DNA from: a virus
Length of the DNA stretch: 23,137 bases
Virus record (IMG/VR): IMGVR_UViG_3300017971_000778
Location: 1-23,137 of that record
Reading direction: 5' to 3' (one strand)
The position numbers were made by a program, and so were the translations under genes. How positions within the stretch are numbered: position 1 is the first letter of the stretch; every line of letters begins with the position of its first letter. Below, in pieces: positions 611-20,971 of the stretch. The notes beneath the pieces are model-generated. The model saw only the letters and a list, made by a program, of their open reading frames with translations, was not told the origin of the DNA and did no database searches.

Positions 611-1420
611 ATGGCATATCAACTTCCTTTCATTCTTTATGACAACGTTCTGGAGGATGGAACGCTGTCCGTGACTTCTGAGGAATCCGGCTTTCCAAAA
701 GAGAATATGGTTGATTGGTTGGATTGGACGTATTGGAAAGCCTCCAGTGCAGTGACTCAGAACATTGATGTGGATAAAGGAGCGGCTGGAATATCAGTTG
801 ATACCTTGGCTGTGCTTGCTCACAATTTTGGGACTGGTGGAAACTCTTTGGACTGTGATATAACAGTTCAGGAGGATGACAACCCTTCTTTCTCCTCTCC
901 TACTACGTTGGGCTCTGTGACAATAACGGATGACAAACCTTTCTATCTTGCATTGACGGCAGGTACAGAGAGATACAACAGAATCAAGATTGAGAATATG
1001 GAGGATGCACCGTTCATTGGTGTAATTTTCCTTGGGGCAAAGATGACGATACCTGTTGGGCCTGAATTTGATTTTGATCCTGACCGCCAGAATATCCAGT
1101 CAGAAAAATTTGTCAGCTACAGCGGAAGGATGGTGTCTTCAGCTGTGAAGTATTCGGAGAGGGATATGAATGTTCCTTTCCGTAGAATCGCTCAGAGCTT
1201 CGTGGCTTTAAATTTGCTTCCTTTCCTTGAAGACCATTGGGCTCAGATGATTCCTTTCTTCTTTGTACCTGATCCGGGTGATGTATTCGGGACAGACAAA
1301 ATCTACTACTTGGTGGCTCCAGACAATCCGACAATTGAACTTCCTGTGTATGAGGATGATATTGCTTTCAGAAACTGGACACTCAGAGCACAAGGGGTAC
1401 GGCAAAGTACCTTCAGATAG
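611..1420 (+). CDS. Putative tail protein (distal tail or minor structural)
   Basis: A 269-aa soluble, probably beta-rich protein with many aromatic residues, no signal peptide and no membrane segment. It lies directly after the tape-measure gene and before the hub-like gene, where siphophages usually encode distal-tail or baseplate proteins. The middle region (about residues 60-155, including LAVLAHNFGTGGNSLDCD) resembles the jelly-roll carbohydrate-binding-like modules of tail proteins, but this is impression only. The start has a weak AGG about nine bases upstream. The next gene starts 8 bases after the TAG stop. A structural role is likely from position; the exact role is not known. Confidence 0.6.
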   Translation: MAYQLPFILYDNVLEDGTLSVTSEESGFPKENMVDWLDWTYWKASSAVTQNIDVDKGAAGISVDTLAVLAHNFGTGGNSLDCDITVQEDDNPSFSSPTTLGSVTITDDKPFYLALTAGTERYNRIKIENMEDAPFIGVIFLGAKMTIPVGPEFDFDPDRQNIQSEKFVSYSGRMVSSAVKYSERDMNVPFRRIAQSFVALNLLPFLEDHWAQMIPFFFVPDPGDVFGTDKIYYLVAPDNPTIELPVYEDDIAFRNWTLRAQGVRQSTFR

Positions 1421-1428
1421 GATGAGAA

Positions 1429-3222
1429 ATGGCTTGGTCTGATGACATAGGCAAGATTGGTAGAAGCTGGGTTTGGTATATTGAGATTGAACCTAGAGCT
1501 TGTGCCAATGTCTATGGTAATTCCCCTTGCACTGCTTCTGGTGGCCAGTGTGGATATTCCTGGGCCACGTGCGAAGATCCAAACAATTTCGTTTTGGATA
1601 CAGTCACATACAAATTCTCCAGCAAGGATGGTCCAAAGATATTTGATGGGACCCAGGTACAGCCCACATTGGTTTCTGTATCTGATATGCCCACGGAAAT
1701 CAACCCGGACAAATCCACCACCATCAATGCCCGTGTGCAGATGACATTTGAGGATGTGAAGAATCCTCCACCCCTTCATTCTGACAAAGGAGCTGGAAAG
1801 TTCCATGCGTACAGGAATGCTACCTTCTGGAGAATTTTCACCCGTATTTATCGGGAGAGTTATAAATATTGCACACTCAGATTGTATGAAGGGCTTTCTA
1901 CCTACACACAATTGTCTGACTTCAGCCTCCGAAGGGAATTGAGAGTCAACAATATTGAATTCCTGAGTGATGGAAAGGTGCGAATTACAGCAACAGATAA
2001 AACCCGCTCTGCTAAGTCTATCAAGATTCCCAATGCCATCTCCTCTTCCAATGTGACAACTGCTCAGGTGACTGCTGGTGATTCTACTATCCCGGTCACA
2101 GATGATTCTGAATTCAAGATTCTTTCCGCTGGCTATCCCTCATATGCCAAGATTATTGACAGCGTAGCTGGGGATGAATATGTCAAGTTCACTGAAATCA
2201 ATTCCGTTGGTGCTTTGGCCAATGTCACTCGTGGACTTTTTGGAACTTCAGATGTTACCCATGCAGCTGGAAAGAAAGTGATTCAGGTGGCAGTTTTCGC
2301 TGACGATACAGATACAGGAATTGCGGCTGACATTGGAGAGAATCCGGTTGACATCTGCAAGGAGATTATACTGGGTTGGATAGGCACAGCTGCAGCCGAT
2401 GTGGATGATACTCAATTCGATACTGAGAGAGACATCTGGTATCCCTCTTTGAAATATCGGAGAATCATCGAAAGTCCAGTGGAGGCAGACAAGCTACTGT
2501 CTCAACTCAACCAATTCATGATGGCCAACATCTGGCAGAATGAAAGTCAGAAGCTCACATTCAGAGGATTGAAACCACAGGCTCCTGGAGAGTCTATTGC
2601 AGAATTCAAAACCACTGAGAATATTCTGAAAGACTCTCTCAAGATCAATAACAAGGTAGAAACCCAGGTCAGCAGAGTGACAGTTCATTTTGCACCTAGT
2701 GATACTTGGGGCACCAGTGACCATTCTTCTGCTGATGATTTCGATGAGCATTTGATTTGGATTGATGCAGCAGCAGAGAATAGCAATGGCCAAGGTGATA
2801 TAGTTGAGGTTGAATTCTTTGCAGATTGGATTTATGCCATATCAGAGGCCAGGTCATTTGCCAGCCGGTACATTAGGAGATTTGCTCCAGTGGCTCCAGC
2901 TGAGATTGAGTTTGAAGTCTATCGCAGAGATGCAGAGACTGAGACTGGGGACATCATAGATTTGACAAGTGATTTGTTTGTGGATGATGATGGCTCTGAT
3001 GATACTTTGAATTTTCAGATACTGGCAAAATCTGAATCTCAAAAAGGTATCATCAAAATGAAGGCTTTGGAAACGAAGTTTGCTTTGAAATATGCTTTCA
3101 TTGCTCCTACTGGTTATCCAGATTGGACCAGTGCTACAGATGCTCAGAAAGAATATGGATACATCTGCAATACAGGCACTGAGAAGATGAGTGATGGTGG
3201 CCCAGCGTCCTATATTTGGTGA
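1429..3222 (+). CDS. Putative tail hub / tail-tip assembly protein with N-terminal four-Cys motif
   Basis: A 597-aa protein, the largest of the tail set. Its N-terminus carries Cys25, Cys34, Cys41 and Cys48 (spacing C-X8-C-X6-C-X6-C) in a Gly/Ser-rich stretch followed by DPNNF. This recalls the cysteine cluster of lambda gpL-type and BR0599-type tail-tip proteins, where gpL binds an Fe-S cluster. The rest looks beta-rich: a segment near residues 210-300 (ITDSVAGDEYVKFTEI-like, with LANVTRGLFGTS) and a C-terminal region near 470-570 fit hub proteins that form the baseplate ring. AGGA lies six bases before the ATG. The order tape measure, tail protein, hub is normal for siphophages. Metal binding is inferred from the cysteines only. 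Confidence 0.62.
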   Translation: MAWSDDIGKIGRSWVWYIEIEPRACANVYGNSPCTASGGQCGYSWATCEDPNNFVLDTVTYKFSSKDGPKIFDGTQVQPTLVSVSDMPTEINPDKSTTINARVQMTFEDVKNPPPLHSDKGAGKFHAYRNATFWRIFTRIYRESYKYCTLRLYEGLSTYTQLSDFSLRRELRVNNIEFLSDGKVRITATDKTRSAKSIKIPNAISSSNVTTAQVTAGDSTIPVTDDSEFKILSAGYPSYAKIIDSVAGDEYVKFTEINSVGALANVTRGLFGTSDVTHAAGKKVIQVAVFADDTDTGIAADIGENPVDICKEIILGWIGTAAADVDDTQFDTERDIWYPSLKYRRIIESPVEADKLLSQLNQFMMANIWQNESQKLTFRGLKPQAPGESIAEFKTTENILKDSLKINNKVETQVSRVTVHFAPSDTWGTSDHSSADDFDEHLIWIDAAAENSNGQGDIVEVEFFADWIYAISEARSFASRYIRRFAPVAPAEIEFEVYRRDAETETGDIIDLTSDLFVDDDGSDDTLNFQILAKSESQKGIIKMKALETKFALKYAFIAPTGYPDWTSATDAQKEYGYICNTGTEKMSDGGPASYIW

Positions 3223-3233
3223 AAGGTTCTAGC

Positions 3234-3698
3234 ATGTTTGCGTTCCCTCCAAATTTCAATAAGCTATTCTCAAGATTGAAACAACAGCCTCAGAATCAGA
3301 AGGCTATGTTTGAGCTGAAATTCAACGAGTCTAGAGGGATTGCCAGACCTTTCATTACCAACGTTCTGTATGACAAGACTTTGGATATACCTTCAGCAAT
3401 GAAATTTCTGAGATTTGAGAGGGAAGCAGATTTGGGAAAAGCCCTCATCTGTCAACATACTTGTGCTCAGAATATGAAGGTGCGTTTTTTCATCAAGTAT
3501 GTTCCCAAGGGCATCAAGCCTTTCAGTTTGAGATTGACCATTTGCCCAGACTGCGGTGCTCCAGTTGCCTATCAGTTCATTGTCTATCCGGGTGACTTGA
3601 ACAAATATCCCAAAATGAGGGATGTTCGCAAGTTTGAGAATCCAGATGAGCTTCCAAGGGCAAAGATGAGCCCTGAATACAAAATAGGAGTTGCATAA
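3234..3698 (+). CDS. Small tail-module protein with two cysteine pairs
   Basis: A 154-aa protein that I do not recognise. The ATG at 3234 is preferred over upstream TTG/GTG codons because GAAAGG at 3221-3226 lies seven bases before it. The chain is basic at the N-terminus (many Gln and Lys, residues 10-25). It has two cysteine pairs, C73-X3-C77 and C104-X2-C107 (CPDCGAP), separated by about 27 residues, which would suit a zinc ribbon. No membrane segment is visible. It lies between the hub-like gene and a tail-tip-like gene, so it may be a virion or assembly protein. Its stop overlaps the next start by one base (TAATG). Confidence 0.6.
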   Translation: MFAFPPNFNKLFSRLKQQPQNQKAMFELKFNESRGIARPFITNVLYDKTLDIPSAMKFLRFEREADLGKALICQHTCAQNMKVRFFIKYVPKGIKPFSLRLTICPDCGAPVAYQFIVYPGDLNKYPKMRDVRKFENPDELPRAKMSPEYKIGVA

Positions 3699-4306
3699 TG
3701 CCAGTTCCAAGTAAATCATTCACGACCATAGCCGATAGCGCAATAGACGCTGATTCCCCCCTCACTGCTGACTTGATGGAGGACTTCCGGGACAATGATA
3801 TCTTCCTCTATGAGTGGATAGGTTACGGCTACACGGCAGCCCAAGCCCATGACCATGATGGAGTCAACAGTGCTTTAGTTGATATCTCAGGATTGCTCCA
3901 GGCTTATAATGCTCAACACACAGTTGATGGTAGTGGAAGTAGTTGGAATATAGATACTGGTTCCCTTGGTTTCACTCCTCAATGTATGCTTGTTCATTGG
4001 GCAATGTCAGGAGCAAATATTTTGTACAATGGATGGGGTATGGGAATGGGTACGGCTGCTGGGGATCAGCATGGAATGTCAATGCGTTGGGATATAAGTG
4101 CAGCAGGAGTTCTTGATAATCTTTCTATTGACTCAAATGACATAATGGGATATTCAATTACAACAGGTGGTGCTTTTGTCACTTCCTTTGCTTCTGATCA
4201 AGCCCGAATAGATGAATGGACATCTAGTAATATAGAAATTCAAACTCAATCAGGAGCATGGCTGGGTGTTACAATTTATATCAATGTTCAAGTTTGGGGA
4301 GCTTAA
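3698..4306 (+). CDS. Putative tail tip / tail fibre protein
   Basis: A 202-aa protein. Residues 1-35 (FTTIADSAIDADSPLTADL, then MEDFRDND) resemble the N-terminal attachment part of short phage fibre or structural proteins, in which a sentence-like 'initialise the field with N copies' segment is common. Residues about 50-58 give HDHDGVNSA, a His/Asp/Gly motif often found in phage fibre and collar proteins. The rest is Gly-, Ser-, Trp- and Met-rich and probably beta-structured. Position at the end of the tail module fits a receptor-binding or tip role. It starts at the ATG that overlaps the previous TAA. Similarity is by motif and context only. Confidence 0.55.
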   Translation: MPVPSKSFTTIADSAIDADSPLTADLMEDFRDNDIFLYEWIGYGYTAAQAHDHDGVNSALVDISGLLQAYNAQHTVDGSGSSWNIDTGSLGFTPQCMLVHWAMSGANILYNGWGMGMGTAAGDQHGMSMRWDISAAGVLDNLSIDSNDIMGYSITTGGAFVTSFASDQARIDEWTSSNIEIQTQSGAWLGVTIYINVQVWGA

Positions 4307-4308
4307 TT

Positions 4309-4683
4309 GTGATAATATATTACCAAGACAGCACAAAGAAAATCAGAGCGATTCTTAATCACAAAGCCAAGACTCATCTTGATACACAAGAAAAGTTGGA
4401 AGCAGACATGAATGTAATGTTTCCAGAAGGCGATGTGGGAGTGAGCAGATTTGCAGAGGATAAGGAAGCAGCTTGCGGAGGTATCTGGGACCCAGTGACT
4501 CAGACTCAGATTGCTCCTCCTGTCAATCCAACCAAGCCTCCTCATCCTCACAAAGACCGTTTGAAGGAACTCATTAATAAATGGGCAGCAGACCCGACAA
4601 AGGCAACCACGGCTGAGGTTGCTGAATATCTGGTCAAAGCAGATTTGACCAAGAAGATGACGGAGGTTGCTGTCAGTCCATAG
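4309..4683 (+). CDS. Hypothetical protein at end of tail module
   Basis: A 124-aa protein of unknown function. I choose the GTG at 4309 because GGGGAG at 4296-4301 is seven bases upstream and the start then lies two bases after the previous stop. An ATG at 4258 in the same frame would overlap the preceding gene by about 50 bases and has no SD. The chain begins with a short hydrophobic strand (IIYYQ), has a Pro-rich stretch near residues 70-80 (APPVNPTKPPHP), and ends in a Lys/Ala-rich helix. No signal peptide or known motif is visible. It may be a tail accessory protein or the first gene of the next module. Confidence 0.6.
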   Translation: MIIYYQDSTKKIRAILNHKAKTHLDTQEKLEADMNVMFPEGDVGVSRFAEDKEAACGGIWDPVTQTQIAPPVNPTKPPHPHKDRLKELINKWAADPTKATTAEVAEYLVKADLTKKMTEVAVSP

Positions 4684-4707: not shown

Positions 4708-5364
4708 ATGAAATTGGCTGAACACGATGCAGGACATCCTAAACGACCACTGGTCATAGCCTACTATACAATTGATACTCCATACGAAGGTGAAGCAGAA
4801 GTCCTGAAGCTATCTCTGGAATCAGTAGGCTACAGCTACTCAATTGCTGGTGTTCCCAATCTTGGAAGCTGGCAAAAGAATACTCAGTACAAAGCCTCAT
4901 TCATTTTTAAGATGCTTCACAAATATCCTTCTGAACCATTACTGTATCTGGATGTGGATGCTATCATGGTTCAACCTCCTACACTTCTGGACAATCTCAA
5001 GGCAGATATTGCAGCAGCCCATTTTGCTAATCGTGCAGGAGGCCCAGGAGGTGAACTGCTCTCAGGCACTCTCTTTCTCGGCAACACCAATAAATGTCTG
5101 CGGATTGTAGAGAGATGGATTGAGTTGAATGAACAATATCCTGACAGATTGCCTAATGGAAAAGATGCTTGGGACCAGAGGACATTGAAGATGGCTATCC
5201 AGAATGTTCCTGAAGTGAACTTTGTTGAATTGCCTCAGGAGTACACATGGATCACAGAACTTACCCAGAGAAGAATGCCAGGATTGAGTCCGGTGATTAT
5301 GCATACCAGGGGTGCAAAGAGATTTAAGAATTTGATCAACGGACTGAGAGGGTACGCAAAATGA
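4708..5364 (+). CDS. Glycosyltransferase, GT-A fold (DxD)
   Basis: A 218-aa predicted nucleotide-sugar transferase. The metal/nucleotide-binding DxD is clear: LLYLDVDAIMV with Asp82 and Asp84, preceded by an N-terminal Rossmann-like strand (PLVIAYYTIDTPY). The later segment GELLSGTLFLGNT resembles the acceptor-side motif of Nucleotid_trans-type enzymes, and HTRGAKRF near the C-terminus could supply a metal-binding His. It is shorter than most bacterial GTs, as is common for viral ones. It is the first gene of the glycan cassette and has a strong SD (AAGGGAAGG). The sugar and acceptor cannot be told. The next gene starts in the stop overlap (ATGA). Confidence 0.78.
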   Translation: MKLAEHDAGHPKRPLVIAYYTIDTPYEGEAEVLKLSLESVGYSYSIAGVPNLGSWQKNTQYKASFIFKMLHKYPSEPLLYLDVDAIMVQPPTLLDNLKADIAAAHFANRAGGPGGELLSGTLFLGNTNKCLRIVERWIELNEQYPDRLPNGKDAWDQRTLKMAIQNVPEVNFVELPQEYTWITELTQRRMPGLSPVIMHTRGAKRFKNLINGLRGYAK

Positions 5365-5543
5365 TAGAACGCTCAAAATTCGTTTATAAAGAGGGTTTGT
5401 TTTTGAGCATAAGAAACTATATAAAAAGAAAGAAACGGCTTCCTAGGGACTGTTTTGAAGCTCTTAGGTATATAGAAATAGGGAAAAGCGTATGGGTAGA
5501 CTCAAAGGAAGTAAACTTACTGAAGAGCATAAAAGAAAAATAA
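5361..5543 (+). CDS. Small hypothetical protein, possibly truncated by the following nuclease gene
   Basis: A 60-aa ORF that starts in an ATGA overlap with the glycosyltransferase stop and has GAGAGGG upstream. Residues about 25-52 ([20 protein letters not shown] followed by [14 protein letters not shown]) resemble the N-terminal half of small phage proteins with an 'aromatic-L..GdSv.V' core that usually continue to a C-terminal basic/Trp end. Here the frame stops 52 bases inside the nuclease gene that starts at 5492. That is what would be seen if the nuclease had inserted into this gene. It may be a degraded remnant or a real short protein; the family resemblance is from memory. Confidence 0.45.
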
Positions 5544-6193
5544 GTGAATCTCATAAAGGTAAAAGACTATCTGAAGAACATAAAAGAAAAATAAGTAAAG
5601 CCATAAAAAGACTTCCAGATGAATATCGAAAAAAATTAAGTGAAGTTCGTAAAGGTAAAAGACTATCTGAAGAACATAAAAGAAAAATAAGCAAAACTCT
5701 TATGGGGCATGAAGTCTCAAAAGAAACAAGAAGAAAAATAAGTAAAGCTAATATAGGAAATAAAATTTCAGAGGAACATAAAAGAAAAACAAGCGCTAGT
5801 ATATCACTAGCGATTAAAGAAGGAAGATTAAATACAGGAGGAACAATAGGAATATCTGGTAATTTCTATTCCAAGAAAAACAAACAAATGCTTCACTATC
5901 GTTCTCAATTGGAACTGAATTGGTATCAACTTCTGGAAAAGATGAAGAAGGTAAAGAAATACCAAGTTGAGCCTTGTGTAATTCCTTATGAGTTTGAAGG
6001 AATGCAAAAACACTATGTTCCTGATCTTAGAATTGTCTATACAGATGGAAGTTCAGAATTGGTTGAAATTAAACCTGAACCATTTTGGAATCATCCTATC
6101 AATCAAGCCAAATGGAAAGCAGCTAGACATTGGTGTAAGACAAGAAAGAGATCAATCAGTTTTAGAGTGGTAGGGTATGAGGAGTTGAATTGA
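5492..6193 (+). CDS. Homing-type endonuclease: NUMOD3-like repeats plus TnsA-like PD-(D/E)XK domain
   Basis: A 233-aa predicted site-specific nuclease. Residues 1-110 hold five NUMOD3-like DNA-binding repeats of the form '[16 protein letters not shown]'. Residues about 120-230 form a PD-(D/E)XK nuclease resembling TnsA N-terminal domains: Glu141 in a helix (SQLELNWY), Pro177-Asp178 ([10 protein letters not shown]) and Glu192-X-Lys194 (ELVEIKP). AGGG lies eight bases before the ATG. The gene is strongly A-rich (runs of aaaagaaaaataag), unlike the neighbouring GTs, which suggests separate ancestry. It overlaps the end of the small ORF at 5361 and ends in TGATG with the next GT, whose SD lies in its last codons. 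A related copy starts at 10917. A transposition role like TnsA's is possible, but no TnsB partner is present. Confidence 0.8.
5855..6193 (+). repeat. Dispersed direct repeat, copy 1 (nuclease domain)
   Basis: The 3' half of the first nuclease gene matches 11256-11594 in the same orientation. The two copies share stretches such as CTTCACTATCGTTCTCAATT and the end GTTGAATTGATG. Identity is roughly 70% at the protein level by eye. Confidence 0.8.
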
Positions 6194-6864
6194 TGTCTAT
6201 CGAAGTGTGGTGTTGTTGGCCTACGGTGAATATGGAAAGAAGCCGGGAAATGATAAAGGTGTGGCATGAGAGAGGCTACAAAGTGTCTGTTCTCATCAAT
6301 CCACCTCATGAAGACACTGAATTGGCTGAAGCTGAGAGAGTGATAGTCCAGAATGAATGGAAGGGATTTCCTGTAGCAGCCAACGTCCTATGCTGGGAAA
6401 CTCCCGGAGATATTGTAGTGGTAGTTGGTGATGATATTTATCCTGACAAGGATCATACCCCACAGGAGATTGCGGGAGATTTTCAAAGACACTTTCCAGA
6501 TTTCTTCGGAGTGATGCAACCGATTGGTGATGAATTCGGGTGGACTCACAAATGCGCTGTCTCTCCTTGGATTGGAAAGATGTTCATTGAGAAATCCTAT
6601 AATGGATGTGGTCCTTTCTGGGAAGAGTATTTTCATTATTTCTGTGATCAGGAATTACAGGAATATGCAACCAAGCTGGGAGTGTTCTATCAAAGGAAAG
6701 ACCTGACTCAATATCACGATCATTGGCAACGGAAAGAAGGGGGAGAACGACCTGGCTATCTGTTGCCAGCAAAGAAGAGATGGCACAAAGATAAAAAAAT
6801 ATTTGATGGAAGAATGGCGAAAGGATTTCCAGATGGGATTAACAAAACAAGAAGATATAGCTAA
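6193..6864 (+). CDS. Putative glycosyltransferase (GT-A, GT2-like)
   Basis: A 223-aa protein. The core strand DIVVVVGDDIYPDKD places Asp80 and Asp81 where GT-A enzymes bind metal and nucleotide sugar. Downstream, CGPFWEEYFHYFCDQELQEY (about residues 138-157) and YHDHW (near 175) resemble the acceptor/catalytic half of phage GT2-like enzymes. The ATG at 6193 overlaps the nuclease stop (TGATG); GAGGAG at 6179-6184 gives good spacing, so the TTG at 6190 is not needed. The C-terminus overlaps the methyltransferase gene by 32 bases. No membrane segments are present, so it should be a cytoplasmic enzyme. Donor and acceptor are unknown. Confidence 0.68.
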   Translation: MSIEVWCCWPTVNMERSREMIKVWHERGYKVSVLINPPHEDTELAEAERVIVQNEWKGFPVAANVLCWETPGDIVVVVGDDIYPDKDHTPQEIAGDFQRHFPDFFGVMQPIGDEFGWTHKCAVSPWIGKMFIEKSYNGCGPFWEEYFHYFCDQELQEYATKLGVFYQRKDLTQYHDHWQRKEGGERPGYLLPAKKRWHKDKKIFDGRMAKGFPDGINKTRRYS

Positions 6865-7549
6865 AACGTGGGGCTCACATCAGCCACTGCTCAAAGCCGT
6901 GCTGGAGGTGTTGAAACCTAAGTCAGCTGTAGAATGTGGGTGTGGGGATTTTTCAACACCCCATATGAAATGGATTCCTTATTTGACAACTATTGAACAT
7001 GATCCTAGATGGGCTAAGATAATTCAGAATGAATATCCTTGGAGGCTTGGAAAGATAGATGAGAACAGTCCTGGTGGTGTGAAGAAATCACCTATAAAAT
7101 GGAATTGGTATATTGAGAGATTTGAAGCCAAGAATCCAACACGTATATCTGAATTGCCTACGGGAGAATTTGATAACATATGCTATTATTATCAGAGGCT
7201 TGCTACGGAATTCAAACCCTTTGACCTTCTGTTTGTTGATACCTTCACGGCCTGTCGAGTTCCTGCTGTTCTCTATCTTGGAACGTTGGCGGAATATATC
7301 ATCATTCATGACCTTGAACCACCTGGCCCAGAAGTCTATGAATGGGAAAGGCTTGATGATTTTCTCAAAGGATGGAAACAATATCTCCACAAACCTATGG
7401 GCCATGTAGGCAATGGCCATCAGATTCCATGGACGGGTTTGTTCTCAAGGAAAGAGATACCATTGGATGAATTGAATAAAGCAATGGAGCCAGAGTCAAT
7501 ACGGCTTTGGAAAGAACATACACCTTTGGTAGAGATGACAAATGATTGA
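6833..7549 (+). CDS. Class I SAM-dependent methyltransferase-like protein
   Basis: A 238-aa protein with the Rossmann signature of class I methyltransferases: motif I SAVECGCGDFST (residues about 31-42), the acidic ribose-binding end of strand 2 (TTIEHD, Glu55/Asp57), and FDLLFVDT as the central strand. This suggests O-methylation of a sugar in the cassette's glycan, since it lies between two GT genes; DNA or protein targets cannot be excluded. I choose the ATG at 6833 (AAGGA at 6821-6825, seven bases upstream) over the ATG at 6806, which lacks an SD. The gene overlaps the GT on its left by 32 bases and the one on its right by 8. The C-terminal half is not familiar. Confidence 0.66.
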   Translation: MGLTKQEDIAKTWGSHQPLLKAVLEVLKPKSAVECGCGDFSTPHMKWIPYLTTIEHDPRWAKIIQNEYPWRLGKIDENSPGGVKKSPIKWNWYIERFEAKNPTRISELPTGEFDNICYYYQRLATEFKPFDLLFVDTFTACRVPAVLYLGTLAEYIIIHDLEPPGPEVYEWERLDDFLKGWKQYLHKPMGHVGNGHQIPWTGLFSRKEIPLDELNKAMEPESIRLWKEHTPLVEMTND

Positions 7550-8312
7550 CTTGGTAGCAGGATATGCCCGTGGATATAATGCTGATGAAATCCGGCCTTT
7601 CCTGAAGTCACTTCGGAAAACTGGATACAATAGAAAAATCCTATTGTTTGCAGATGGGGAAGCAGCAGAGGAAGCAAAGAATTGGGATGTGGATTTATTT
7701 GAAGTCCCTGCGCTCAAAGTCAAAGTCCATTCTGATAGGTTCTTATGCTTGGAAAGAGTGTTGAGTGATTATCCCTGTGAAGGCATTTTCCTTTCTGATA
7801 CCCGTGATGTCATCTTCCAGAAGAATCCTGCTTTGAATCTTCCTTCTGATGGGCTGAATGTCTATGAAGAGGATCAAAGCATGAGCTTGGGAATATGCCC
7901 TTACAATTCCAAGTGGATTAAACTGGGGTATGGTGAAGATGTATTGAAAGAGATGGGAGCCTATCCAATATCATGCGTAGGGACAACCTGCGGTGATAGG
8001 GATTCCGTGCTTCATTATCTGAAGAAACTGAAGGAAGAGATTGAGAGAATTCAACCCAAGACAACCCATCCTCAGGATCAAGCCGCTCACAATTATCTTA
8101 TCAGAAAAGACTTGGCTGACCTTCAGATTGCTTCCCAACTTCGGGTATGGAATAATGAAGAGGGAGAGATATACACGGTTGGCTACATTCCCCGTGGGAC
8201 AGTGCAATTGAGAAACAATAAAATCATCAACAAAGCAGGAGTTGCTCCAACGGTAATTCATCAATGGGATAGACACCGCAATCTTGAAAATCTAGTGAGG
8301 TTGGTTTTATGA
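7542..8312 (+). CDS. Putative glycosyltransferase (DTRD-type, GT-A-like)
   Basis: A 256-aa protein with a GT-A-like N-terminal half: alternating strands and helices lead to GIFLSDTRDVIFQKNP, with Asp86 and Asp89 as likely metal and nucleotide-sugar ligands. A conserved-looking end (VAPTVIHQWDRH, near residue 240) could supply the C-terminal metal-binding His, as in GT-A families. Residues about 186-196 (HPQDQAAHNYL) fit a 'DQ..hN.L' acceptor-side motif seen in many small GTs of viruses and fungi. The start overlaps the methyltransferase stop by eight bases. No signal or membrane segment is visible. The specific family and the sugar are unknown. Confidence 0.66.
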   Translation: MIDLVAGYARGYNADEIRPFLKSLRKTGYNRKILLFADGEAAEEAKNWDVDLFEVPALKVKVHSDRFLCLERVLSDYPCEGIFLSDTRDVIFQKNPALNLPSDGLNVYEEDQSMSLGICPYNSKWIKLGYGEDVLKEMGAYPISCVGTTCGDRDSVLHYLKKLKEEIERIQPKTTHPQDQAAHNYLIRKDLADLQIASQLRVWNNEEGEIYTVGYIPRGTVQLRNNKIINKAGVAPTVIHQWDRHRNLENLVRLVL

Positions 8313-9076
8313 GAACATTCATCAACAATCAGAGACTGGCTCAGCTGGCTGGAGTGAATTTCGATTCAGAGGAAATCAAAGAAGGCCCAATTGTATATTC
8401 CCGGACTCATACAATTGCTTCCCAATTCTCCAAGCTGTCCAAGTTCCCTGATTGTGTCTTAATCACCAGCTTCTCAGATGCAGAATGTACGGTGGCTATG
8501 TCTAGGAGATTGCCACCAAACGTTCGGAGATGGTTTAGCAATAATGTTTCAGCCCATCATCCACGCATTACTGCTATTCCCATAGGATTGAGAACATCTC
8601 CAGAAGGCGAAGTGAAATTGAGAGAGGCTATGAACAGAGGGAGATTGCCTCAGCGTAATCTGGTATATATGAATTTCTTCAGGAGAATTCACCGTTCACA
8701 AAATCCACGCAAAGGATTATATGAGATGTTTGGAGGAAAGGATTGGGTGACAACTGAAGGCGGATTTGATCATATGCCAATGGATCATTTCTATGAACAA
8801 ATGCTTTCCCATCCATACATTCTTTCTCCTCCTGGAGCTGGTCCAGATTGTCACCGTCACTGGGAGTCTATCCTGTTGGGCTCAATCCCTATTGTACTGA
8901 AGAGTCCAGCCATGAAAATTCTGTATGGCCTTCCTTGTCTTCAGGTCAATAATTGGGCTGAGGTGACAGAAGAGAGATTGGTAGCTGAACTTCCCGAATT
9001 ACAAAAGCTGTTTCAGAGTCCATTGATGGAAATATGCTATTTTGAATACTGGAAACAGCAGATATTGGAGGCGTAG
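8309..9076 (+). CDS. Exostosin/GT47-like glycosyltransferase
   Basis: A 255-aa protein. The C-terminal segment ILSPPGAGPDCHRHWESILL followed by GSIPIV (residues about 171-196) matches the pattern of exostosin-like GT-B transferases, 'lsP.G.g.d..R.wEal..GciPvv', in which the Arg/His-Glu pair contacts the nucleotide sugar. The N-terminal half has no obvious motif. It starts in an ATGA overlap with the previous GT and ends directly before the first sulfotransferase gene. Exostosin-type enzymes make glycosaminoglycan-like polymers in animals, and it is notable that sulfotransferases follow at once, but the product here cannot be inferred. Family confidence is good, function moderate. Confidence 0.72.
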   Translation: MRTFINNQRLAQLAGVNFDSEEIKEGPIVYSRTHTIASQFSKLSKFPDCVLITSFSDAECTVAMSRRLPPNVRRWFSNNVSAHHPRITAIPIGLRTSPEGEVKLREAMNRGRLPQRNLVYMNFFRRIHRSQNPRKGLYEMFGGKDWVTTEGGFDHMPMDHFYEQMLSHPYILSPPGAGPDCHRHWESILLGSIPIVLKSPAMKILYGLPCLQVNNWAEVTEERLVAELPELQKLFQSPLMEICYFEYWKQQILEA

Positions 9077-9682
9077 ATGGCTCAGCAAATTGTGATGTGT
9101 GGAATTCCCCGTAGTGGATCAACGTTGGTATGGCAAATTCTTCAAGCTGTCTTTCCTAATGAAGCCATTCCAAAGACCCATCCTGATGTATGGGAGCCTG
9201 ATGGTTCCACAGTCATTGTTTCTATTCGCAATCCATTTGATGTGGTTGCTTCTCTATTGAGAGTCCGGCTGAGCAGGGAAAGAAGAAACACTCCTGATGA
9301 AAATGATATTGAGAACGTATTGGGAAGGACAACCCTGTGCTTTGAAAGGTTGGATGGTCTATTGTATGGACCTCATGCTTTGCTTCGGTATGAGTATTTT
9401 TATAAGGATTATTCTCTCATATACGATATGATCAGAAGTGTGTTTGGACTGTATATATCTCCAAATAATCGAAAGAAAATCAATCAACAATTCAGTCTGG
9501 AAAGAAACAGGGAAAGAGCTGATGCTTTGAAAGATTTTAGTGAAGTTGATGGAGATCAAATCCACGGTGATCATATTGGTCATGTCATTCCTGGATATTG
9601 GGAAGAGTATTTGCCTGATTGGAGTTTCAGCCGGGTAGTAGAAGTCTGTGAACCAATATGCAGGGAATGGGGTTATGAATAA
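9077..9682 (+). CDS. Sulfotransferase (PAPS-dependent), copy 1
   Basis: A 201-aa predicted sulfotransferase that would move sulfate from PAPS to a sugar or other hydroxyl. The 5'-phosphosulfate loop is GIPRSGSTLVWQIL (residues 9-22) and the 3'-phosphate site is VSIRNPFDVVASL (about 48-60, Arg51 and Ser59). It is small for the family but contains both PAPS sites. It begins with ATG directly after the TAG of the exostosin-like gene. It is a tandem paralogue of the next gene: both share GIPRSGSTLVW and end in PIC(R/K)EWGY. Conserved PAPS sites suggest an active enzyme; the acceptor is unknown. Confidence 0.82.
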   Translation: MAQQIVMCGIPRSGSTLVWQILQAVFPNEAIPKTHPDVWEPDGSTVIVSIRNPFDVVASLLRVRLSRERRNTPDENDIENVLGRTTLCFERLDGLLYGPHALLRYEYFYKDYSLIYDMIRSVFGLYISPNNRKKINQQFSLERNRERADALKDFSEVDGDQIHGDHIGHVIPGYWEEYLPDWSFSRVVEVCEPICREWGYE

Positions 9683-10310
9683 GATTGTAGCGTGTGGTAT
9701 TCCTCGAAGTGGATCAACGTTGGTATGGTTGCTGCTTCAAAAAATACTAGATAGACAAGTGATCAAAGCTCATCCTGCTTCGTGGTCTCCTGAACCTTGT
9801 GAATTGATTGTCAGTTCAATTCGCCATCCCTATGATACAGCAGCTAGTTGTTTCCGTACTCGTATCGTAGGAAAAGGGGATGGGTCATTGGAAAATTCTC
9901 AATGCACCAAACAAGGTTTGACAGCTGAATTGAATATGATGAACAGCAACTTTGAAGCTCTGAAATTATGGATACAAAAATATCCTGGTAAAGTAGTGAT
10001 ACTTCGCTATGAAGAATTCTTTGATAATTTCAATGTCATCTTTCATATGATCAAAGAGCAATTGGGAGTAGATGTTCCAACATCTCAAAGGAAAGCTCTC
10101 ATTCAGAAATATTCATTTGAGTCCAATAGAAAGAAAAGTCTTCAAATCAATCCTGGGGAAAGCATCGAACGTATGGGGACATCTCATGTAGCTGTCGGTG
10201 TTCCTGGTTCATGGAAATCCATTATACCATTCTGGGGATATGATTTGATGAAAAAATGGTGTGATCCTATATGCAAAGAATGGGGATATATGAAATATGA
10301 GAATCAATAA
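9675..10310 (+). CDS. Sulfotransferase (PAPS-dependent), copy 2
   Basis: A 211-aa paralogue of the preceding protein. The PAPS loop is GIPRSGSTLVWLLL (residues 8-21) and the 3'-phosphate site is SIRHPYDTAASCF (Arg50, Ser58). The ATG at 9675 is chosen because it aligns with the start of copy 1; the upstream ATG at 9648 would add an unaligned extension. The eight-base overlap ATGAATAA couples it to copy 1. The middle differs from copy 1 by insertions and many substitutions, so the duplication is not recent and the two may act on different positions of the same acceptor. The C-terminus overlaps the third sulfotransferase by 14 bases. Confidence 0.82.
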   Translation: MNKIVACGIPRSGSTLVWLLLQKILDRQVIKAHPASWSPEPCELIVSSIRHPYDTAASCFRTRIVGKGDGSLENSQCTKQGLTAELNMMNSNFEALKLWIQKYPGKVVILRYEEFFDNFNVIFHMIKEQLGVDVPTSQRKALIQKYSFESNRKKSLQINPGESIERMGTSHVAVGVPGSWKSIIPFWGYDLMKKWCDPICKEWGYMKYENQ

Positions 10311-10920
10311 GCATTTCGGGTTTGTATTTATCTCAACACCAAAGGCCTGCACTCATACCATTTACAAAATTCTGGATGAGCATTATTCAGAAGGATTGAT
10401 TGAAGATGGATTTCATAATAACAAGATACCTGATTTATATCAATCCTATTTTCGTTGGACAATCTGTCGCAATCCATATTCAAGAATGGTGAGTGTTTGG
10501 TGGAGTGCCTGCAGACTTGCCCACAAGGATCAGTATGGATTCCGAAAGAGATGTGGAGCCAAGGATGATTTCAATCAGTTTGTGCGTTGGTTGGTTGAAT
10601 TGCCATTGAGAAAACGTCAACGTGATCCTTTAATGATGAATCAATCCGAATGGCTTTGGGATATAGAGCCTGTTGTTTCAATCCGAATGGAGAATTTGGA
10701 AGATGGTTTGAAGCATCTTCCCTTTTGGAAAAATGGAATTGAGATTCCACAGTTGAATACTACAGATGAGAAAATACCAGACCGTGAAGAAGAGGAAGGA
10801 CAAACAATTATCAAACCACCTTGGCAAGAATTCTATCAAGACAAGAATATTCAGGAAGCAGTGATGAAATTCTCTGAGCCTGATTTTGCAAGGTTTGGAT
10901 ATTCAGAAGAGATACCATGA
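10297..10920 (+). CDS. Sulfotransferase family 2-like protein (carbohydrate sulfotransferase type)
   Basis: A 207-aa protein of a different sulfotransferase branch from its two neighbours. The N-terminal PAPS loop is FVFISTPKACTHTIYKIL (residues about 9-26, Lys16) and the 3'-phosphate site is WTICRNPYSRMVSVWW (Arg58, Ser66). The 'hK..cT......RnP..R..S..' pattern is that of HNK-1/chondroitin-type family 2 sulfotransferases. It ends with ARFGYSEEI, a family-like C-terminus, so the gene looks complete although the nuclease gene follows in an ATGA overlap. Acting with the GTs it could sulfate a surface polysaccharide; the acceptor is not known. Confidence 0.75.
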   Translation: MRINKHFGFVFISTPKACTHTIYKILDEHYSEGLIEDGFHNNKIPDLYQSYFRWTICRNPYSRMVSVWWSACRLAHKDQYGFRKRCGAKDDFNQFVRWLVELPLRKRQRDPLMMNQSEWLWDIEPVVSIRMENLEDGLKHLPFWKNGIEIPQLNTTDEKIPDREEEEGQTIIKPPWQEFYQDKNIQEAVMKFSEPDFARFGYSEEIP

Positions 10921-11594
10921 AAAAGGGTTCAAAACACACAACTGAAACTCGTATGAAAATGAGCAAAGCTCATAAAGGAGTAAAGCGTGCTAAACATACG
11001 GCCGAAACACGTATGAAAATAGGCAAAGCTAACAAAGGAAAGAAGCGTACTGAAGAAGTTAAAAGAAAACTAAGCATATCTCATTTAGGTCATAAGGCTT
11101 GGAATAAAGGAAAGTCACTATCTAAAGAGATAAGAAGAAAAATGAGTGAAGCTCATAAGGGTCATTGTTTTTCTAAACAAACTCGTGCCAAACTAAGTAA
11201 GGCCATGATTATGTCTATTAAAGAAGGGAGCAGACATCCAGAACGAAATGGTGTTTCAGGTGATTTCTATTCAAAGAAAAACAAAAAGACTCTTCACTAT
11301 CGTTCTCAATTAGAAATGAATTGGTATCAACTTCTGGAACAAATGAACAAGGTCAAAGCATATCATGTAGAGCCTTATATTATTCCTTATAAGTTTGAAG
11401 GTTTAACTAAACATTATCTACCTGACCTAAGAATTGTTTATACAGATGGAACTTTTGAACTGGTTGAAATCAAACCAGAATCACTTTGGAATAATCCTAA
11501 GAATCAAGCCAAGTGGAAAGCAGCAAGACGTTGGTGTAAGAAACAAATTATTAAAACTACTTTCAAAGTAGTTGGGTATGAGGGGTTGAATTGA
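10917..11594 (+). CDS. Homing-type endonuclease paralogue: NUMOD3-like repeats plus TnsA-like nuclease
   Basis: A 225-aa relative of the protein at 5492. Five NUMOD3-like repeats fill residues 1-100, but these are much diverged from the first copy. The nuclease domain (about 112-225) is close to it: Glu133 (SQLEMNWY), Pro169-Asp170 (HYLPDLRIVY), Glu184-X-Lys186 (ELVEIKP) and the end VVGYEGLN. Divergent DNA-binding repeats with a conserved catalytic domain suggest different target sites. It is AT-rich like the first copy. It starts in the sulfotransferase stop (ATGA) and ends with TGATG into a GT gene, exactly as the first copy does. All catalytic residues are present, so it is probably active. 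Confidence 0.8.
   Translation: MKKGSKHTTETRMKMSKAHKGVKRAKHTAETRMKIGKANKGKKRTEEVKRKLSISHLGHKAWNKGKSLSKEIRRKMSEAHKGHCFSKQTRAKLSKAMIMSIKEGSRHPERNGVSGDFYSKKNKKTLHYRSQLEMNWYQLLEQMNKVKAYHVEPYIIPYKFEGLTKHYLPDLRIVYTDGTFELVEIKPESLWNNPKNQAKWKAARRWCKKQIIKTTFKVVGYEGLN
11256..11594 (+). repeat. Dispersed direct repeat, copy 2 (nuclease domain)
   Basis: This is the second copy of the repeat at 5855-6193, about 5.4 kb away in the same orientation. Both copies end at the same GTTGAATTGATG and fuse to the start codon of a glycosyltransferase gene. Recombination between them would delete the enclosed cassette. Confidence 0.8.
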
Positions 11595-12244
11595 TGAAAC
11601 GTTTGATTAGCTTCAGCGTGTACGGAAACAAACCTATGTATAATGAGGGAGCCATTGCGAACGCAAAACTGGCTCCCAAAATATATCCGGGATGGATTGT
11701 GAGAGTGTACTGTGGTAGGAAAGTGACGTGCAAGGAAAAACTGATTGATATGGGTTGCGAAGTGATTCAGATGAGGCATTCCCGAATGCATTCAGGAATG
11801 TTCTGGAGATTCCTTGCGGCCTGGGATGAGAAGGCTGAGCGTGTCATCTTTCGTGATACAGATTCCCGGTTGAATGTAAGGGAAGCAGCTGCAGTGAAAG
11901 CGTGGGAGAAGTCCGGCTTGATGGCCCACTCAATGCATGACCATCCACATCACTGCAACCTTCCCTTTCAGGGAGGAATGTGGGGAATCAAAACAGGTAT
12001 TCTTCCTGCTGAGATGATGGATATGGTTGTGTTGATGGGAAGAAAGCCACAGGGGAGAATCAAAGACATGAGATTTTTGAATGAGCATGTCTATCCATTG
12101 GTATGCAGTTCAACTCTCCGGCATTCTTCTCAGGTTTTGAAGAAATGGAGTTGGGACAAATTCCCTTCTCATCCGAAGTTTGAGGGATTTGTTGGTCAAC
12201 AATATGACAACGAAGGAAATCCAATCTGGCCTGAAGTGAAATGA
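11594..12244 (+). CDS. Glycosyltransferase-like protein (DTDSR motif)
   Basis: A 216-aa GT-A-like protein. VIFRDTDSRLNVREAAAV (residues about 84-101) has Asp88 and Asp90 as the DxD metal site, followed by a conserved 'REAxAVxxW' helix. AHSMHDHPHHCNLPFQGGMW (about 111-130) fits the acceptor region of a GT family found in many phages, algae and fungi. The ATG at 11594 overlaps the nuclease stop and has AGGGG upstream; the TTG at 11591 is not needed. It is the last plus-strand gene and ends in TGA at 12242-12244, just before the convergent inverted repeat. Sugar and acceptor are unknown. Confidence 0.74.
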   Translation: MKRLISFSVYGNKPMYNEGAIANAKLAPKIYPGWIVRVYCGRKVTCKEKLIDMGCEVIQMRHSRMHSGMFWRFLAAWDEKAERVIFRDTDSRLNVREAAAVKAWEKSGLMAHSMHDHPHHCNLPFQGGMWGIKTGILPAEMMDMVVLMGRKPQGRIKDMRFLNEHVYPLVCSSTLRHSSQVLKKWSWDKFPSHPKFEGFVGQQYDNEGNPIWPEVK

Positions 12245-18733: not shown

Positions 18734-19218
18734 ATTTTGCCCGCCAAAAGTCTTCGCCCATATTCGCCAATGCACATGGCATCAGCTAATCCATCTGAAT
18801 CTTTTTTACTCCTAGGCGTAGGTAGCAGGTTGATCTTAGGCCAAAGTCTTTTTGCTACAATGATACTTGCTTCCTTTGACTTCGGTGTATCTTTACAGAT
18901 CACTTTCTTCCATGTTTTAGGATGAACAAGAGTGTAAGGAAGAAATAGTCCACAACAAATACCTCTGAGAATTCCCCATCCAGTTCCATAGTTGAACATG
19001 CTGACACCACCTTGCTTTGGCATCGCTTGGGCTTTCTCAATAAATACATGTTCAATTTTTGTTTTGTAATTATATAGATAATCACGTATACCATTTTCAT
19101 CTAGCATATTTTTTGTCTTTGTCATTTTGAGAGTGGGAACAGGGATCACCTTTACTTTCTTCTTGCCAATAAAAGCAATAGCACCTTTCAGTCCTGGATC
19201 AATGCCTACAATGATCAT
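18730..19218 (-). CDS. RuvC-like Holliday-junction resolvase
   Basis: A 162-aa RNase H-fold nuclease. Acidic residues fit RuvC: Asp7 (VGIDPGLKGAIAF), Glu61 (HVFIEKAQAMP) and the DSDGLADAMCIGEYG motif with Asp142 and Asp146. Length is close to that of phage RuvC-like enzymes. The ATG at 19218 is chosen for the SD (GAGGAAGAGAGG) and the ATGA overlap; the longer frame to 19323 is an overlap with the gene upstream. In this operon it would resolve branched DNA made by the RecA-like protein and Mre11-Rad50 during replication and packaging. No signal or membrane segments are visible. Confidence 0.82.
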   Translation of the reverse strand: MIIVGIDPGLKGAIAFIGKKKVKVIPVPTLKMTKTKNMLDENGIRDYLYNYKTKIEHVFIEKAQAMPKQGGVSMFNYGTGWGILRGICCGLFLPYTLVHPKTWKKVICKDTPKSKEASIIVAKRLWPKINLLPTPRSKKDSDGLADAMCIGEYGRRLLAGKI

Positions 19219-20081
19219 CCTCTCTTCCTCACTATTGTCTTCCTTTTTCTTCTGAAAAATAATCGTTTGATTTCTTCCTTTGTTGCCGCAGGTCTGCTCC
19301 ATGTTCTGGCAAATTTCTTCCACTTAGGATCTTGTTCACCTTTCTTATTCATATATAGCATAGCAAAAGGTAGGAAGCCTAATTTCCAAACAGCCAACAT
19401 TCTTTTCAATGCTTTGTCTGTTGTATCATCTGGATATCCAACTAATACATAACAACGCATATGTCCGTAAGTAAATGCTGCATAGTGCAAAAGCTTTGAG
19501 GCTTCTCTTAATGGTTCATAATCATCTGGTGTATCATAAGCAAAAAACATTTGAGAAGGTCGAAGGTTCCATAATAATTCTACATGCCAATGTTTTAGTA
19601 ATTTGGCTTCTAAACCTCCAGTAAATACTATTGAATTTCCTTTTTCTTTCTGTCTTGATAACATTTTGAAAACATCTTCTATATGTTTTCTACTACAAGC
19701 TAGTAAATTATCATCTAATACATTCCATCCGTTTGTGATCGGATATTCTTTCAAATCTCCACTGCGTTTCCATACATCACAGAACCAACATTTATTTGGA
19801 CATCCTCTGCTTGTAATAACATACCCTTTTTTGAGATACATTCCAGGTTGAAATTCTCCTCCTGGATTATCATATGCTGGTTTAACTGGAGCGATTTTTC
19901 CCCATGACTTTGCCAATTTATTCTCAGCAAATTTTTTATCACCAGTAAAAGTCACACTGATATGGATTTCTTCAAAATCCATTTCACGTTCAATCAGACT
20001 AGGCATTCCAACAAAAGCTAAATTATCATCTGGTGTTGCATTGGTTTTTCTAGGAAAGACTCTAGCTATTTTGTTAGTCAT
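19215..20081 (-). CDS. Radical SAM enzyme
   Basis: A 288-aa protein. CPNKCWFC (Cys94, Cys98, Cys101) is the CX3CX2C motif that binds the 4Fe-4S cluster of radical SAM enzymes, and VFTGGLEAKL (about residues 145-155) fits the SAM-binding GGE-like element. The rest follows a partial TIM barrel (MFFAYDTPDD, MRCYVLVGYPDD). The ATG at 20081 has GAGG eight bases upstream and overlaps the FEN stop; an upstream start at 20138 is not needed. Radical SAM genes occur in some phage replication regions, where a role in nucleotide or base modification has been proposed, but nothing here shows the substrate. No partner enzyme of the 7-deazaguanine pathway is seen. Confidence 0.8.
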   Translation of the reverse strand: MTNKIARVFPRKTNATPDDNLAFVGMPSLIEREMDFEEIHISVTFTGDKKFAENKLAKSWGKIAPVKPAYDNPGGEFQPGMYLKKGYVITSRGCPNKCWFCDVWKRSGDLKEYPITNGWNVLDDNLLACSRKHIEDVFKMLSRQKEKGNSIVFTGGLEAKLLKHWHVELLWNLRPSQMFFAYDTPDDYEPLREASKLLHYAAFTYGHMRCYVLVGYPDDTTDKALKRMLAVWKLGFLPFAMLYMNKKGEQDPKWKKFARTWSRPAATKEEIKRLFFRRKRKTIVRKRG

Positions 20082-20971
20082 TTCCGTTTCCTCATCTTGA
20101 GCTTGCCTTTGAAAACACCTTTGAAAAAATTCAGCCATTGTTTTTGTCTACGTGGTTCCAGATAGCTCATGATATTATAATGCTTACAGAATTTGAAAAA
20201 CATTCTGCTGTTATATTGAGGAGGATGAAAAGAGAATGGCTTGGTTTTCTTATGGGGAAGGATTGTCAATTTTCCCCATCGTTCAATCTCTTTGTCGCTT
20301 GTGACTATGGTCTGATATTTTTTGGTGTGTTCTGATAGTTTTCCTGTCATGTAGTCAATAGCACTTTTCTCTCCAATCCCTTTCAGACCAGGAACACCAT
20401 CAGAGTTGCATCCGCCCATGGCTTTGATAGTCCCCCACCATGCTGGACTAATTCCTTTTTTCTCTGTAAAGGATTTGACATCCAATAGCAGTTCTTTTCC
20501 AGGATCATACCATTGGATATATGGAGTGATGCACTGATACAAATCTCCGTCTGAAGTAATGATGATTCCCTTCTCATCTTTTGCGTTTATTTCTTGAGCA
20601 ACATAAGCAATCAAATCATCAGACTCAAGACCAACCTGCTTGAATACTGGAAATCCTATCTTGGGAAGGATTTTGTTTTTCAGTTTGTTGACCTGCTGAT
20701 ACATGATGCTGATTTGCTGCTGCTCTTCCTCTGTGCGCTCCTCTTTCCTCTTCTTTTTGTAATCGGGGAAAGCTCTTGCTCTGTAGCTCCTTTTGGAATC
20801 AGCAAAGATGAGGACTCTATTGCTACTGATTATTGGGTTGGTGCAGATGGAATAGAGTTGTTCAAAGAATCCATACAAAACCCCTACCGGAATATCATCA
20901 TGCTCCAAATCACCCAGAGCATACCGAGCACGGTGGGCAATATATGACAAATCTAGAAGTACCCATTTCAT
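20078..20971 (-). CDS. 5'-3' exonuclease / flap endonuclease (FEN, T5 D15-like)
   Basis: A 297-aa protein with all FEN/PIN-like landmarks: Asp7 (LLDLSYIAHRARYA), FADSKRSYRARAFPDYKKKR (54-75, Asp58), GLESDDLIAYVA (Glu116, Asp118, Asp119), ITSDGDLYQ (Asp141, Asp143) and the helix-turn-helix GCNSDGVPGLKGIGEKSA (187-204) that grips DNA. It resembles T5 D15, the DNA polymerase I 5' nuclease and T4 RNase H, which remove RNA primers and flaps. Length suits a stand-alone enzyme. It starts in an ATGA overlap with the small gene upstream and precedes the radical SAM gene in the same way. All metal ligands are present. Confidence 0.88.
   Translation of the reverse strand: MKWVLLDLSYIAHRARYALGDLEHDDIPVGVLYGFFEQLYSICTNPIISSNRVLIFADSKRSYRARAFPDYKKKRKEERTEEEQQQISIMYQQVNKLKNKILPKIGFPVFKQVGLESDDLIAYVAQEINAKDEKGIIITSDGDLYQCITPYIQWYDPGKELLLDVKSFTEKKGISPAWWGTIKAMGGCNSDGVPGLKGIGEKSAIDYMTGKLSEHTKKYQTIVTSDKEIERWGKLTILPHKKTKPFSFHPPQYNSRMFFKFCKHYNIMSYLEPRRQKQWLNFFKGVFKGKLKMRKRK

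Follow-up and report, generated by a model that had tools for sequence, protein, structure and literature searches.

Why would a tailed phage encode nine glycan-modifying enzymes side by side, three of them sulfotransferases, directly 3' of its tail genes? The question is raised by a cassette at positions 4708-12244, plus strand, of a virus fragment of 23,137 bases (IMG/VR record IMGVR_UViG_3300017971_000778), the whole of which we call the window. The cassette is an operon-like run of 11 open reading frames (ORFs) on the strand of the structural genes: nine glycan-type enzymes (A, C to I and K) and two homing endonucleases (B and J). We hold, with somewhat better than even confidence, that it is a virion-glycosylation locus which the phage itself encodes and which includes sulfation, because its enzymes are soluble, lie on the structural-gene strand, have capsid-linked homologues and have relatives in chloroviruses. 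An earlier note on this DNA had described nine enzyme genes in a tightly overlapping run on the plus strand after the tail genes. All nine are present, with overlapping or abutting ends, and the count of five glycosyltransferases (GTs), one methyltransferase and three sulfotransferases stands, E and K being assigned on motifs; the two endonucleases had been overlooked, and a gap of 127 nucleotides (nt) separates A from B.

The nine ORFs are real genes, because their orthologues are conserved, nucleotide differences fall mostly on codon position 3 and the gene order is kept. Protein identity between orthologues of close relatives is 40-71%, and third codon positions vary most in all cassette families. 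The earlier note had proposed a search for the same gene set in relatives; the order proved to be conserved in eight further contigs (L003, L004 from G002, L005 from G003, L007 from G004, L024, L025, L026 and L143), and a rearranged cassette is found in L042.

Where such cassettes lie in other phages suggests what they modify. Two lineages that are otherwise unrelated have sulfotransferase-free core cassettes immediately after the major capsid gene. In G008 and G009 (GC 63%), which are related and were counted once, the cassette starts after the major capsid gene (phrog_247); in L032/L033 (GC 53-54%) it lies behind the major capsid gene phrog_29 (L032), and a neck-type protein gene follows two genes after the cassette (L033). 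The head links come from different lineages, and both groups have only cassette families in common with the lineage of the window; a few other short matches were read, from their positions, as overlapping frames within the cassette. Within the window's lineage, G002, G003 and G004, its three largest contigs, carry a sialyltransferase-like gene of family phrog_4603 behind decoration and capsid-like genes, and in L031 a domain of the same family forms a fusion with A (2.3e-35). In G008/G009, too, A has a fused N-terminal domain; it resembles phrog_4603 (NGPS-type motif) at a level below significance and was not used.

The same positions bear on the idea that the glycan tunes adsorption, being attached to a tail or receptor-binding protein whose gene lies beside the cassette. 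Tail genes adjoin the cassette also in L003, L004 and L007, and the lineage keeps the cassette after the tail region although the tail modules differ. However, the neighbouring proteins are non-homologous between carriers (no PHROG is common to the neighbours in L005, L024 and L025) and capsid adjacency recurs in other lineages, so we find this variant of the virion-glycan reading rather doubtful. It is also conceivable that the cassette modifies a host surface glycan or a secreted polysaccharide during infection, either blocking superinfection or mimicking host polysaccharide. Phage GTs are known for modifications of this kind, as in serotype conversion (PMC12619734 and general knowledge), the epimerase and methyltransferases of relatives are typical of polysaccharide loci, and a chondroitin polymerase is among the fold matches of C. 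Nevertheless, we consider it unlikely, since unrelated phages have homologous cassettes behind their capsid genes and the cassette lies on the structural-gene strand. In addition, the cassette proteins have no membrane segments (hydropathy maxima below 1.5), no flippase or polymerase is found among them, and neither an integrase nor a lysogeny gene was noticed in the window.

For two cassette enzymes, the closest relatives of solved structure come from Paramecium bursaria chlorella virus 1 (PBCV-1), a chlorovirus. F matches A075L of PBCV-1 in the PDB with 6e-26 as a single sequence (phmmer) and 5.6e-31 as a profile, compared with a weak match to Pfam Exostosin (1.6e-4). The A075L paper assigns Asp73, Asn148, Arg158 and Arg208 to catalysis and donor binding. 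Read off the alignment, in which chain and native numbering differ by two, these correspond to D57, N122, R134 and R183 of F, and all four are invariant; the acceptor-site residue Asn202 of A075L is Ala177 in F. The comparison places F in or beside GT114, the A075L family of capsid-glycan xylosyltransferases, which use UDP (uridine diphosphate)-xylose as donor and form a beta-xylosyl product. The earlier note had called F exostosin-like, a label under which A075L itself was formerly filed; GT114/A075L-like is the better name. The hint of an exostosin or heparan-type polymer has lost its basis, as the match of F to A075L is far better than that to GT47. A is predicted (AlphaFold pLDDT, the predicted local distance difference test, 91) to have a GT-A fold, and its top PDB match in Foldseek is domain 1 of A064R from PBCV-1 (2p6w/2p72, E 3e-9, template modelling score (TM) about 0.65). 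A is conserved in the cassettes found.

C has a predicted GT-A/GT2-type fold (pLDDT 84) with PDB matches to PcManGT, chondroitin polymerase and SunS. Among the homologues of A, C, D and E, taken together as one mixed set, there are Glycos_transf_2 matches and, in one member, a Methyltransf_24 match (7.7e-11); the family tallies were pooled from this set, and assigning each Pfam match to one family is our reading. D itself has no direct Pfam match, and its ExGxG motif is conserved across 8 homologues. E and K are called putative GTs because they carry DxD-type motifs, in the setting of the cassette, but have no family match. E gives a weak match to a PHROG glycosyltransferase (0.016), and profile searches of the PDB with either E or D returned nothing useful. 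The RDxDSR motif of K is invariant and nearly so among 46 distant homologues, none of which has a Pfam match (0/46); K homologues are present in dozens of phage contigs. HHalign comparisons between the cassette families, made with shallow alignments, gave no signal and were not used.

Gene fusions tie several of these enzymes to one another. In L033 a single protein of 758 amino acids (L033:14038-16314) combines an F-like GT, a K-like GT and an FkbM methyltransferase, and in L029 A and C form one ORF; the fused enzymes therefore belong to the same pathway.

G, H and I are predicted sulfotransferases that use 3'-phosphoadenosine-5'-phosphosulfate (PAPS). G falls just under the Pfam cut-off but has the PAPS-site motifs intact at all their residues, and its profile matches solved sulfotransferases. 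G and H are paralogues (35% identical) in whose 12 homologues the 5' and 3' phosphate-binding motifs (GxPRxGST; R51/S59) are invariant, and in I the motifs STPKACTHT and RNPxSR..S are conserved. The context of the cassette and the Sulfotransfer_2 match of I suggest that all three act on carbohydrate. Among the cassette carriers, sulfotransferases were seen only in the window's lineage, in L042 and in L143, with the same core; the remaining G/H-like matches (L148-L150) have no cassette around them. As for the sulfate donor, one cassette-bearing contig, G007, encodes in its replication region a full kinase (CysC) for adenosine-5'-phosphosulfate (APS) at L138:6863-7435 (TIGR00455, score 242.8 bits, cut-off 138.7), and this enzyme would supply PAPS. 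A phage-encoded ATP sulfurylase (PF01747) was looked for and none was found, so that APS would come from the host. A separate observation concerns G004, where an APS-kinase-like domain is fused to an HxGH nucleotidyltransferase-like domain (L128:887-1645, minus strand) beside a large structural-type gene, portal-like by eye; the fusion may be a PAPS-related enzyme of an unusual kind, or it may do something different.

Sulfotransferases and GTs of phages have also been read as enzymes that hypermodify the bases of phage DNA by glycosylation and sulfation, as Iyer et al. 2013 proposed for other phage operons (cited in PMC10829341), and replication genes do lie beyond our cassette, on the other strand. 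For the present locus we rejected this reading as very improbable, no supporting enzymes having been found in seven contigs of the lineage, which are not proven complete. The thymidylate synthase family was not found there, while the positive control gave its signal; neither was TET/JBP, in a search whose control stayed silent. Moreover, the strand of the replication genes is opposite to that of the cassette, and the solved enzymes closest to F and A work on capsid glycans.

Among the functions offered in the earlier note we thus favour the modification of virion proteins over that of the host surface, in view of the capsid-adjacent cassettes, the fusions, the chlorovirus homology and the lack of membrane proteins. 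The virion-glycan pathway may be pictured as follows. In the cytoplasm of the host, the soluble enzymes A, C, E, F and K would assemble a short, heterogeneous oligosaccharide. Its carrier would be a single virion protein or a small number of them, head proteins being the likeliest and tail proteins a possibility, and the chain may be started by the GT42/sialyltransferase-like protein whose gene neighbours the capsid genes in the window's lineage. D would methylate a sugar, and G, H and I would add sulfate from PAPS, so that the glycan coat would be methylated, sulfated and negatively charged. The FkbM and other methyltransferases, the radical S-adenosylmethionine (SAM) protein and the epimerase of the relatives would diversify the glycan. 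The benefit to the phage may be shielding or adhesion, through the charge of the glycan or adsorption to glycans of the host for example; we infer it, as we do the acceptor, the chain order and the linkages.

Several points weigh against a virion glycan. The window's own lineage has the cassette after tail genes, not capsid genes. GT-A folds are generic, and A reaches a TM of only about 0.65, with 14-15% identity, against A064R; E and K match no family. Being soluble does not keep a GT from acting on membrane-bound precursors of the host. The capsid-adjacent cassettes are free of sulfotransferases, so that the argument has to be extended to reach sulfation of the same acceptor, and a recognisable APS kinase is absent from most relatives, so that sulfation would need host PAPS.

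A wider proposal is that we are dealing with a modular virion-glycan locus, swapped between unrelated tailed phages and partly homologous to chlorovirus capsid glycosylation, which in the window's lineage makes a sulfated, methylated glycoprotein coat and in at least one relative is fed by a phage APS kinase. We put this forward tentatively, at a little less than even confidence. The usual picture of a phage virion is one of bare protein. If the proposal is true, it would be, to our knowledge, the first case of a bacterial virus with a sulfated virion glycan and would give phage sulfotransferases their first assigned role. A conserved nine-enzyme sulfating cassette, a capsid-linked core and an enzyme family in common with giant algal viruses suggest that elaborate virus-made coats occur across virus groups, and the cassette could account for many GTs that are without assignment in phage metagenomes.

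It is instructive to compare the cassette with systems already described. The capsid N-glycan pathway of PBCV-1 (A064R, A061L, A075L/GT114, A111/114R) likewise consists of virus-encoded soluble GTs and methyltransferases. F is homologous to A075L, with the catalytic residues kept, A resembles domain 1 of A064R in fold, and the GT-GT-methyltransferase fusion of L033 resembles the layout of A064R, which joins two GTs and a methyltransferase (PMC9614988). There are also differences: the genes described here reside in a tailed phage and not in a giant virus of algae, and the cassette contains three sulfotransferases whereas the PBCV-1 pathway literature examined reports none. The glycogene clusters of Moumouvirus australiensis and Cotonvirus japonicus combine GTs with sulfate-metabolism genes, and sulfated sugars have been suggested there (PMC9614988); these, however, are giant viruses of amoebae with fibril glycans, and their clusters include rare-sugar nucleotide pathways.

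Among phages, virion glycosylation is known in mycobacteriophages. A 2023 study by Freeman et al. reportedly dealt with it in Che8, Corndog and Myrna. According to papers that cite this study, phage-encoded GTs glycosylate capsid and tail tube proteins in these phages (PMC12363180, PMC11256854, PMC12619734), and such glycosylation is established (PMC12363180, PMC12619734). In the descriptions compared, one or two GTs per phage are named (such as Che8 gp110 and Corndog gp38), as against a cassette of nine enzymes, and sulfotransferases are not mentioned. The Sulfotransfer_3 family is present in genomes of OM43-type phages, in Synechococcus phage S-SRM01 and among environmental auxiliary metabolic genes, but as single genes whose role is stated to be unclear (PMC10580990), whereas here three stand in a conserved glycan cassette and one relative has an APS kinase. 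A phage cassette with GTs, a methyltransferase and several sulfotransferases was not found in the literature searched, which excludes preprints and most subscription journals. The remark in the earlier note that no such cassette is known thus applies to the sulfated version; phage virion glycosylation itself was already known, and sulfation is the new element. A tblastn search of 50,697 phage records with D, H and I gave zero matches, so the sulfated cassette is in no deposited genome of that collection.

The two endonucleases are later insertions that lie outside the glycan pathway, since A and C, and likewise I and K, abut directly in relatives. B stands between A and C in this phage only, the site being empty in seven relatives, and J stands between I and K in this phage only, the relatives having no insert there. 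One of the two probably arose by copying of the other, because the proteins are 52.5% identical and the DNA of the nuclease part is 80% identical across 382 nt. Both genes end in the common junction GTTGAATTGATG, which contains the ATG of the following gene. As these 3' ends supply a Shine-Dalgarno-like sequence (GAGGAG/GAGGGG) together with that ATG, translation of the following gene may be kept. The coordinates of all features are collected in Table 1.

Table 1. Genes of the cassette and associated features; positions refer to the window unless a locus is named.
Feature	Position	Strand	Basis and remarks
A, GT-A glycosyltransferase, first cassette gene	4708..5364	+	LDVDA motif, predicted fold; starts 25 nt after last tail gene
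B, freestanding homing endonuclease, NUMOD3 + PD-(D/E)XK (TnsA/T7 endonuclease I-like)	5492..6193	+	Pfam NUMOD3 1.5e-11, TnsA-like 3.7e-12; PHROG homing endonuclease
C, GT-A, GT2-like glycosyltransferase	6193..6864	+	ATG 6193 (ORF opens TTG 6190); GDD motif
D, predicted class-I SAM methyltransferase	6833..7549	+	likely start 6833 (ORF opens TTG 6803); motif I ECGCG
E, putative GT-A glycosyltransferase	7542..8312	+	invariant DxRD motif, cassette position
F, GT114-like GT-B glycosyltransferase	8309..9076	+	PDB A075L of PBCV-1
G, predicted PAPS sulfotransferase	9077..9682	+	Sulfotransfer_3 4.9e-5
H, predicted PAPS sulfotransferase	9675..10310	+	likely start 9675 (ORF opens GTG 9648); Sulfotransfer_3 7.5e-7, Sulfotransfer_1 3.5e-6, above cut-off
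I, predicted carbohydrate-type sulfotransferase	10297..10920	+	Sulfotransfer_2 (PF03567) 1.2e-6, above cut-off
J, homing endonuclease, NUMOD3 + PD-(D/E)XK	10917..11594	+	NUMOD3 2.9e-15, TnsA-like 5.5e-11
K, putative GT-A glycosyltransferase, last cassette gene	11594..12244	+	ATG 11594 (ORF opens TTG 11591); RDxDSR
Tail genes t2 to t6	611..4683	+	including tail-fibre-like 1429-3222, PHROG tail family
Sialyltransferase-like gene (phrog_4603), window's lineage	L117:6518-7159		behind capsid genes

Upstream of the cassette, the tail region of the window comprises the end of the tape measure and tail-fibre-like proteins. Recombination and replication genes (SbcCD-like, RuvC-like, 5'-3' exonuclease, RecA) occupy the minus strand, and among them, apart from the cassette, is a gene for a radical SAM protein (19215-20138, minus strand). 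Scans for promoters and terminators gave signals not above chance. In those relatives with enough sequence the replication module is common while the tail modules differ, and some relatives carry optional genes for a radical SAM/SPASM protein, FkbM, another methyltransferase and a GDP-mannose-dehydratase-like epimerase. Polysaccharide-deacetylase-like proteins were recognised by eye in sulfotransferase-free cassettes of the GC-rich lineage (L010:741-1424 and L029:11242-11907), and a cysteine-dioxygenase-like protein (phrog_7851; L031:11161-11511) adjoins the A fusion gene of L031. Finally, one of the relatives, contig G006 (L025/L038), has also been deposited within a metagenome-assembled genome of a Thermoplasmata archaeon (QMSR01000001.1), which may point to an archaeal host or to a binning error, and we claim no host.

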